Shown: in pieces, positions 14,972 through 37,356 of the stretch | Position numbering within the stretch: the first letter of the stretch is position 1 | Layout of the letters: every line of letters starts with the position of its first letter | Assembly: GCA_021819205.1 (NCBI GenBank) | Contig: JAKARV010000004.1 | Location: forward strand, 1 to 64,000 | DNA: 64,000 nucleotides | Direction of reading: 5' to 3' | DNA from: Actinomycetes bacterium | GTDB lineage: Bacteria; Actinomycetota; Acidimicrobiia; Acidimicrobiales; Acidimicrobiaceae | Notes under the pieces: generated by a model | What the model was told of the DNA's origin: nothing | The model's input: the letters and a program-made list of their open reading frames with translations, nothing else | Database searches by the model: none | Position numbers and translations under genes: made by a program

Positions 14972-15313
14972 CTATCCGGGGACGAGCAACCGCTCGCCAG
15001 GATAGATAACCGCCGAGCGGGTCTGGTGCTCAAGCCGATAGACCAGCGGGTAAGGGTCTCCCCCGCCATCAAACTTCTCGGCTATCCCGAGAAGCGTGTC
15101 TCCGGGCTTGACCACGTAGTAGCTGGCACCCGCCGAAGAAGCGGGCAACTGGCGATCGGCTAGCCGGACTGCACAGGCAACCGCGCCCAAAAGTACCACA
15201 CCGGCCGCTAGCACCTCGGCGATCCGAGATTTCCGCGACCGGCGGCGCGGTGCCACGGAGCAGGTGGCAACCACAAACGGCTTGACGCTACTGCGATCTT
15301 TTGTCAAGGTCAT
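14972..15313 (-). CDS. LysM-domain membrane protein under SOS control, YneA/ChiZ/DivS-like
   Basis: A 113-residue protein: a basic N-terminus (RRRSRKSR), one membrane segment (about 31-50) and a C-terminal LysM domain (YYVVKPGDTLLGIAEKF to YPGERLLVPG) that binds peptidoglycan outside the cell. This architecture matches the SOS-induced cell-division inhibitors YneA of Bacillus, Rv2719c/ChiZ of Mycobacterium and DivS of Corynebacterium. A perfect SOS box lies 3 bases upstream of the ATG. Unlike those genes it is not beside lexA here. It probably delays division during DNA damage (inference). Confidence 0.8.
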   Translation of the reverse strand: MTLTKDRSSVKPFVVATCSVAPRRRSRKSRIAEVLAAGVVLLGAVACAVRLADRQLPASSAGASYYVVKPGDTLLGIAEKFDGGGDPYPLVYRLEHQTRSAVIYPGERLLVPG

Positions 15314-15316
15314 GAT

Positions 15317-15332
15317 TCGAACTTTAGTTCGA
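15317..15332 (-). promoter_or_regulatory. LexA-binding SOS box overlapping the -10 of the LysM gene
   Basis: TCGAACTAAAGTTCGA (minus strand) is a perfect inverted repeat matching the actinobacterial consensus TCGAAC-N4-GTTCGA. Its centre contains TAAAGT (15326-15321), a -10-like hexamer 7 bases before the ATG. LexA bound here would cover the promoter of a leaderless transcript. Confidence 0.85.
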
Positions 15333-15373
15333 GGCTACGACACCGCTTCACTTAGCATCGTGAGACCTTGGGA

Positions 15374-16978
15374 TCAGCAGCCGAGAACGCTCTCGAAGAA
15401 TGCCCCCATCAGCGCCAGCTCCTCCAGAGCGGCACCCGCCGAGTACCCGTGCCCCTCGCCATCGAACTCGCGGACGGCAAGGTTCAATCGCTCGCCATAG
15501 CGCGCAACGAAGCGGCGGGTGGCTTCGATCGGCACCACCCGATCCGCGCTCCCGTGCGTGATCAGCACTGGAACCCTGCTGGTCAAGGCGGAGAAGGCTG
15601 GAGCTGACGGGGGTCGCAACCACTTGAGCATGGCATCGTCGTCCCCGCCGAGATCGGTAAGTGGAAAGGAGAGGAAAAGCGCCGAGAACAGCTCTGGAGA
15701 GAGCGCCATCACCGAAAGCAGGGAGTATCCGGCCGACGAGGAGCCGACTCCAAGCAGAGGCAGCTCCAGTTCATAGCGGAGGCTGCGGCCAATCCGGTCT
15801 AGTGCCTCAGCCTCGACGATGCCGAAAGAGTGCTGGAGCCGCTTCCGGAAGTACTTGCCATAGCCGTAGGAGCCCGGGTAGTCGACCAAGGCGAGTCCAA
15901 CGCCGTGCGCCAGCAGATAGGCGTACTTCGGGTTGTAGCCGCCCGAGGCGAGCTCTACCGGTCCACCGTGCACCACCAGCGCCACGGCCCGCGGAGAGGG
16001 CGGGAGCAGCAGCATCCCCGGGGTGCCAAGGGTCGAGAGCGGATGGCGAACCAACGCGTTGAGCCTCAACGGCGCCTCGGAACGCTCAAAACACCTCGAG
16101 ACAGTCCGGACCTCGATACCTTCCTCGAGCGAGGAGGAGATGAAACCGGTATCCTCGGCAACGCGAGCCAGCGAAGAAGCCAACCCCTCGAAAACCCTCC
16201 CGGTCTCCGAGTCGACAACGCCAGGCCTCTCGATGGTAGGCAGGATCGCCTGGTAACCCCCACCTGATGGAAGATAGCTTTTTCTCCCGCCCCCGAGCGG
16301 CACCTCGCCAAGGTCGAGTGAGTTTGAGAGCCCGGGAGGGCGCTTTGGGGATGCGCCAAGCTCCACCGGGGTGTAGCTGCCGCCGGCATCAGAACGCCCC
16401 CAGAGCTGCTCGTTTACAAACCGGGGTTCAACGATCGACTGCTCAGCCTGTCCGAAGGAGTCGATCACCGTACCCGAGAGATCGAAGAGGAGAAGCTTGG
16501 CCTCGAGCCAGGGTTCCAAACCGGTGGCGAGGCTTACCGCAACCCGATCTTCTCCGGCCGCTACCTCGATGACCGGCGTGGCGGCCAGGTTGATGTCGAC
16601 CAGAACTTCCCTGTTGGCAGTGCCGATGACGAAGTGGCCGGGGAAGGCTACCGCGTAGACGGCTCCTGAAGCGGAGGCGGAGATCCCGGTCGCACCTTCG
16701 TGCCTCCCCAGCGACCGGCTCTTGCGGCCATCGAAGTGAAGCAGGGTCCCGTCACTTGCCAGCAGGTAGATGCCGGAGTCGGTGATGGCGAGCGAACCCG
16801 AGTTGCCCAGCCGGCGCGGCATTACCTCCACGTTGCCAAGGCCAGGTGGACTGGCACTCCCGATGTAGCGGGAGCCATGTTCATCACTCACCCCGACCAA
16901 GTAGGTCCCGTCAGCGGTTCCCCAAAGATCGAAAAAGGTGCGGGGAAGGACGAAGAGCTCAGCGGGCTTTAAGGCCAC
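15374..16978 (-). CDS. Prolyl-oligopeptidase family (S9) serine peptidase/acyl-peptide hydrolase-like
   Basis: A 534-residue protein with an N-terminal beta-propeller-like half (repeated short strands, residues 1-300) and a C-terminal alpha/beta-hydrolase domain. VVHGGPVELASGG carries the oxyanion region, GVGSSSAGYSLL holds the Ser nucleophile, ITHGSADRVVP the Asp, and GEGHGYS the His. No signal peptide is seen, so it is probably cytoplasmic. GTG 16978 directly abuts the TGA of the acyl-CoA mutase gene, so the two are translationally coupled. The substrate is unknown. Confidence 0.88.
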   Translation of the reverse strand: MALKPAELFVLPRTFFDLWGTADGTYLVGVSDEHGSRYIGSASPPGLGNVEVMPRRLGNSGSLAITDSGIYLLASDGTLLHFDGRKSRSLGRHEGATGISASASGAVYAVAFPGHFVIGTANREVLVDINLAATPVIEVAAGEDRVAVSLATGLEPWLEAKLLLFDLSGTVIDSFGQAEQSIVEPRFVNEQLWGRSDAGGSYTPVELGASPKRPPGLSNSLDLGEVPLGGGRKSYLPSGGGYQAILPTIERPGVVDSETGRVFEGLASSLARVAEDTGFISSSLEEGIEVRTVSRCFERSEAPLRLNALVRHPLSTLGTPGMLLLPPSPRAVALVVHGGPVELASGGYNPKYAYLLAHGVGLALVDYPGSYGYGKYFRKRLQHSFGIVEAEALDRIGRSLRYELELPLLGVGSSSAGYSLLSVMALSPELFSALFLSFPLTDLGGDDDAMLKWLRPPSAPAFSALTSRVPVLITHGSADRVVPIEATRRFVARYGERLNLAVREFDGEGHGYSAGAALEELALMGAFFESVLGC

Positions 16979-37273: not shown

Positions 37274-37356
37274 GACTCGAATTTCCCTTCGAATGGCGTA
37301 ACTCAGAGGAGAGCTACTCCGTTATTTTCGCGATTTGCGACTGCACGACTGGAGCG

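Follow-up and report, generated by a model that had tools for sequence, protein, structure and literature searches.

A Relocated ChiZ/YneA-Type Gene with a Predicted Leaderless Promoter Uniting LexA and Candidate PafBC Elements in Acidimicrobiaceae

Introduction

YneA of Bacillus subtilis is a LexA-controlled protein with a single transmembrane (TM) helix and an extracellular LysM domain. Its TM helix binds FtsW, and the division block depends on peptidoglycan binding by its LysM domain, for which D46 and T47 are needed (PMC13396833). ChiZ (Rv2719c) of Mycobacterium tuberculosis is a DNA-damage-induced protein of the same TM and LysM composition, encoded next to lexA, and the rv2719c operon was reported to be under PafBC and SOS boxes (PMC8151990). 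It was also reported that ChiZ works without its LysM domain, and that DivS shares no significant homology with YneA (PMC3989709). DivS is an SOS-induced division suppressor of Corynebacterium glutamicum, encoded near lexA. The mycobacterial PafBC promoter was described as tTGTCRgtg-8 nt-TannnT (PMC5656591), with the reported variants TGTCGG/AG/AC-N10-TA-N3-T (PMC8151990). In M. tuberculosis, a quarter of the genes whose start has been mapped are leaderless, and TANNNT is the common -10 (PMC3898074).

Here I describe a LysM gene in a window of 64,000 nucleotides (the whole stretch of DNA analysed; contig C55) from a 2.13-Mb draft genome of 64 contigs belonging to the Acidimicrobiaceae. The gene resembles chiZ in its product and in its probable dual control, but it has departed from lexA, and both predicted inputs and the start codon lie within about 33 bp. 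The product resembles YneA in its single TM helix, its extracellular LysM domain, the predicted LexA control, and the D and T residues kept in the LysM domain, while it differs in its long basic N-terminal tail, in scoring below the NCBIfam cut-off, in not being encoded beside lexA, and in its leaderless layout. With DivS it has the functional idea alone in common. The promoter is like the mycobacterial PafBC/RecA-NDp (P1) promoters in that a TGTC core lies 17 nt (9+8) before a TAnnnT -10, although here the LexA operator overlies the spacer and the -10. Taken as a whole, the locus is likely to encode a ChiZ/YneA-type division inhibitor expressed from a leaderless promoter, with LexA as the predicted repressor and PafBC as the probable activator.

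Table 1. Features of the LysM gene and its promoter in the window
Feature	Position	Strand	Basis
ChiZ/YneA-type gene, 113-aa TM + LysM protein	14972..15313	-	ORF, domain search, purifying selection in g5
Predicted transmembrane helix, residues 31-49	15167..15223	-	Hydropathy maximum 2.4 over 19 residues
LysM domain, residues 66-112, with G71-D72-T73	14978..15118	-	Pfam PF01476; invariant columns
Start codon ATG, 7 nt past the -10; predicted leaderless 5' end	15311..15313	-	Spacing conserved
Putative -10 element TAAAGT, within the LexA box	15321..15326	-	TANAGT in 9/9 box-bearing copies
Predicted LexA operator (SOS box), minus-strand reading TCGAACTAAAGTTCGA	15317..15332	-	Sole perfect match in the window; kept in relatives
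Candidate PafBC/RecA-NDp-type element GTGTCGTAG, 8 nt ahead of the -10	15335..15343	-	TGTCnnA invariance, spacing

The LysM Protein

As shown in Table 1, the product of the gene is short and is predicted to span the membrane once, with its LysM domain outside the cell. Nine K/R residues precede the helix in the N-terminal tail. The LysM domain matched the Pfam model PF01476 with 23.7 bits (cut-off 20.9), and no catalytic domain besides it was found in a domain search of the protein. The GDT motif is invariant in the relocated copies of the genera g1 and g5, and its D-T pair matches D46/T47 of YneA. The score against the NCBIfam YneA equivalog NF010723 was below the cut-off (20.1 against 60 bits), and thus the protein was not filed as YneA. 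The g5 copies are under purifying selection, with dN/dS values of 0.2-0.6. FtsW/RodA-family proteins are present in the genome. A scan of the named genome contigs gave generic LysM proteins only.

Its architecture, together with the synteny seen for its homologues, places the protein in the ChiZ/YneA type. The earlier note, made from this DNA alone, had likened it to YneA, ChiZ, and DivS. The likeness stands for the first two, since the gene is the syntenic counterpart of the LysM genes beside lexA, but not for DivS, which is no sequence match, given its reported lack of significant homology with YneA (PMC3989709). The protein is rather likely to be a division inhibitor.

Gene Neighborhood

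The lexA gene of this genome was found on contig C61, divergent from nrdR and with no LysM gene between them. The LysM gene is thus away from lexA, as the earlier note had recognized. Most of the closest homologues in the order Acidimicrobiales are located between lexA and nrdR, and the lexA-lysM gap there usually has at least one box. The LysM gene has this position in the family genera g3, g4, g135, and g136, and apparently also in g137, whose LysM has diverged. Since these homologues in sister genera and in the order adjoin lexA, the present gene, which does not, is called a relocated member of the ChiZ/YneA type. The gene order lexA-chiZ-nrdR of M. tuberculosis matches the ancestral order seen in Acidimicrobiales.

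In g1, g5, and g2, lexA and nrdR are divergent neighbors with nothing between them, and the LysM gene sits between the genes for methylmalonyl-CoA mutase (MCM) and a convergent quinone oxidoreductase (QOR). These three genera form one clade in the LexA tree (support 100/99; long branches flagged), which fits a single change of place in an ancestor. The gene probably changed place a single time, in the ancestor shared by the three Acidimicrobiaceae genera.

On the same strand, an S9 peptidase gene (15374-16978) lies upstream and ends 41 nt before the box. The g5 genomes have a divergent tetR gene and no S9 gene, this genome has the S9 gene and no tetR, and Acidimicrobium (g2) has both. In G032, a g2 genome taken as Acidimicrobium ferrooxidans, the locus comprises MCM, the S9 peptidase, the divergent tetR, a degenerate LysM gene, and QOR. 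Thus, the S9 gene does lie where the earlier note had placed it, but lying behind it is an accident of which neighbor got lost. On this synteny, the idea that the S9 peptidase is a functional partner was rejected.

The LexA Box and the Leaderless Layout

The only match without a mismatch to the LexA box in the window is TCGAACTTTAGTTCGA at 15317-15332. On the minus strand, the box reads TCGAAC-TAAA-GTTCGA and overlaps the -10, so that TAAAGT (15326-15321) is followed by TCGAATC (7 nt) and the ATG at 15313. Under a first-order Markov model of the window, 0.0065 perfect boxes are expected by chance in 64 kb, and 0.22 in the genome. The whole genome has two; the second, at C26:8202, lies within an open reading frame, where it spells IELKFE, and the frame resembles a CYTH-domain protein, as read by eye from the translation rather than by a domain search. 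Moreover, CGAACN4GTTCG shows no genome-wide enrichment, with 4 sites where the reversed control has 8. Counting boxes over the genome was therefore dropped as support, and the case for the box is carried by its position and conservation, not by its rarity.

The box is conserved as TCGAACTANAGTTCGN in nine relocated copies (two in g1 and seven in g5). In these nine genomes of two genera, the gene begins behind TCGAACTANAGTTCG, and the ATG follows the embedded -10 by 6-7 nt; box, -10, and spacing are retained in 9/9. This conserved layout argues that the box is not due to chance. The earlier note had proposed both a perfect TCGAAC-N4-GTTCGA box over a TAAAGT -10, with its coordinates given correctly, and an ATG 7 bases from that -10; both were borne out. 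The promoter thus contains a predicted LexA operator, and LexA control of the gene is very likely.

When all 11 relocated copies are considered, the start codon lies 6-7 nt past the -10 position in every one, across three genera of differing sequence. The letters of the -10 fit TANNNT in 9/11; the two g2 copies depart from it with TAGGCC and TAGGTA. Neither a TTGACA/TATAAT-type promoter nor an Rfam element was found. It is highly probable that the mRNA is leaderless, with its 5' end at the ATG.

The PafBC-Type Element

Just upstream, the columns invariant among the 11 relocated copies are TGTC, an A three bases on, and parts of the spacer and of the -10. This TGTCnnA, which the earlier note had overlooked, is the sole other invariant element there, and in 11/11 copies it stands at the spacing of PafBC (RecA-NDp) promoters. 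The TGTC is part of a 9-nt block located 8 nt before the -10, the whole being GTGTCGTAG-CCTCGAAC-TAAAGT here and CTGTCAGAG-TCTCGAAC-TACAGT in g5. The sequences upstream of the box in G000 and G224 share 18% identity, but 64% over the last 11 nt. The pattern TGTCNNAN9TANNNT has a single match in the window. Compared with TGTC[G/A][G/C]-N10-TANNNT or tTGTCRgtg-N8-TannnT, the TGTC and the spacing agree in 11/11 copies, the next two positions vary, and the R of the latter consensus is not retained in several copies. In these genomes, the pattern TTGTCnnAG-N8-TAnnnT shows no enrichment relative to its reversed control, and the PafBC pattern was absent when sought in the copies beside lexA.

The recA gene of the same genomes has TTGTCTTAG or TTGTCAGAG-N8-TAGTCT beside a LexA-like site. 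Each genome also has one fused PafBC-like gene, whose protein contains two WYL domains and HTH_PafC; PafBC thus appears to be encoded in a fused form. In both g2 genomes, a TGTCCGA element and a start codon 6 nt past the -10 position are kept, while the LexA box is gone. On balance, a PafBC input at the promoter is slightly more likely than not.

A few related observations were made. In all nine g1 and g5 genomes (L090-L098), a conserved LexA-like site lies directly before a PafBC-type TTGTC-N12-TAGTCT promoter of recA. At L205:3102-5030, PafB and PafC are apparently fused into a protein of 642 aa, and no pafA-like gene was noticed within 9 kb around it.

The Acidimicrobium Copies

The relocated LysM gene of A. 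ferrooxidans (L154:4461-4970) is degenerate and has PGQT for PGDT. It has no LexA box, but the PafBC-type element and the start-codon spacing are kept. Since neither NCBIfam nor Pfam recognized the degenerate LysM, the identity of this gene rests on its position, topology, and start-codon layout. The loss of the box in g2, together with the degenerate LysM, indicates that the gene can do without LexA control.

Alternative Explanations

An alternative to a PafBC input is that LexA alone controls the leaderless gene and TGTCnnA is ordinary promoter context, for instance a sigma contact. The missing enrichment of TTGTCnnAG-N8-TAnnnT, the variable R, and the copies beside lexA without TGTCnnA would all fit this. 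Against this, however, TGTCnnA has the exact PafBC spacing in 11/11 copies and survives in g2 where the LexA box does not, the same element is found at recA of these genomes, and a PafBC-like gene is present. Control by LexA alone is therefore possible but somewhat doubtful. Another origin of the transcript, by read-through from the upstream S9 peptidase/mutase operon with the box as a chance palindrome, would be suggested by the closeness and shared strand of the S9 gene and by the fact that no terminator-like site was found between them. But the box is kept in nine genomes, only 0.0065 perfect boxes are expected per window, and read-through cannot serve in g5, whose upstream neighbor is the divergent tetR. 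This explanation was discarded on the g5 arrangement as highly improbable.

As for the protein, it might be a damage-induced wall-binding or remodeling protein and not a division inhibitor as such. This would fit the description of ChiZ as a hydrolase of the cell wall (PMC3989709), the general wall-binding nature of LysM domains, and the score below the cut-off of the YneA model. In contrast, the short TM and LysM proteins of known role that are linked to LexA and encoded beside lexA, YneA and ChiZ, delay division, and LysM is the only domain found here. A remodeling role thus seems unlikely, and inhibition of division is the preferred reading.

Possible Mechanism

The gene descends from the LysM gene found between lexA and nrdR in most of the order. 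Its promoter of about 33 bp would consist of TGTCnnA, 8 nt, and a -10 (TANAGT) within the LexA operator, with the start codon 6-7 nt beyond the -10. In undamaged cells, LexA would cover the -10, and the gene would be off. Upon DNA damage, LexA would be removed, PafBC would probably engage with RNA polymerase on the same short promoter, and the transcript would begin at its own ATG. The protein would then reside in the membrane with its basic tail in the cytoplasm, one TM helix, and the LysM domain outside. It may hold up the divisome via the TM helix and LysM-peptidoglycan binding until repair is done; the process halted after DNA damage would most likely be septal cell-wall synthesis. The detailed mechanism is uncertain, since ChiZ reportedly needs no LysM domain.

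Because M. tuberculosis rv2719c was already reported under LexA and PafBC, the gene would be a relocated, compacted form of a known kind, namely a chiZ-type gene under joint LexA/PafBC control. Three things appear to be new: the gene has changed place, a single minimal promoter combines both predicted inputs with the start codon, and Acidimicrobium has lost the LexA arm; no paper describing such relocation, packing, or loss was found in a non-exhaustive literature search. I tentatively propose that the promoter uniting both actinobacterial DNA-damage pathways with the start codon arose when the gene left lexA, and that in Acidimicrobium the LexA arm was later lost while the PafBC arm persisted, which would give a natural rewiring series over three genera.

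The locus suggests that a division-inhibitor gene of the SOS response can move away from lexA and still retain damage control with a minimal promoter. The copies beside lexA, the relocated copies with a LexA box and a PafBC-type element, and the relocated copies with a PafBC-type element only make up a comparison set for the question of how two damage pathways share one promoter. It is also suggested that the joint LexA/PafBC control of M. tuberculosis chiZ recurs in a distant actinobacterial order. Does a leaderless mRNA suit a protein that is needed in stressed cells? The layout raises this question.

Similar Layouts at Other Genes

Across 397 genomes of the order, the pattern CGAACTANNGTTCGN2-5ATG was matched 25 times and its reversed control 6 times. 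Its other matches precede a DUF222 gene and several ORFs resembling HNH-type or helix-turn-helix proteins. Thus, other leaderless genes probably also have a LexA box placed over their -10.

In g3 (L074, L075, L076, and L079), the LysM gene beside lexA also looks leaderless, by a different layout: TATAGT or TACAGT lies 7 nt before the ATG, and this ATG is itself within the second LexA box of the lexA-lysM gap. In the window, a box with two mismatches (37277-37292) is located just upstream of the start of a rho-like gene, although it may merely reflect a ribosome-binding stretch. At L140 and L141, a ruvC-like gene seemingly starts with an ATG inside an SOS box.
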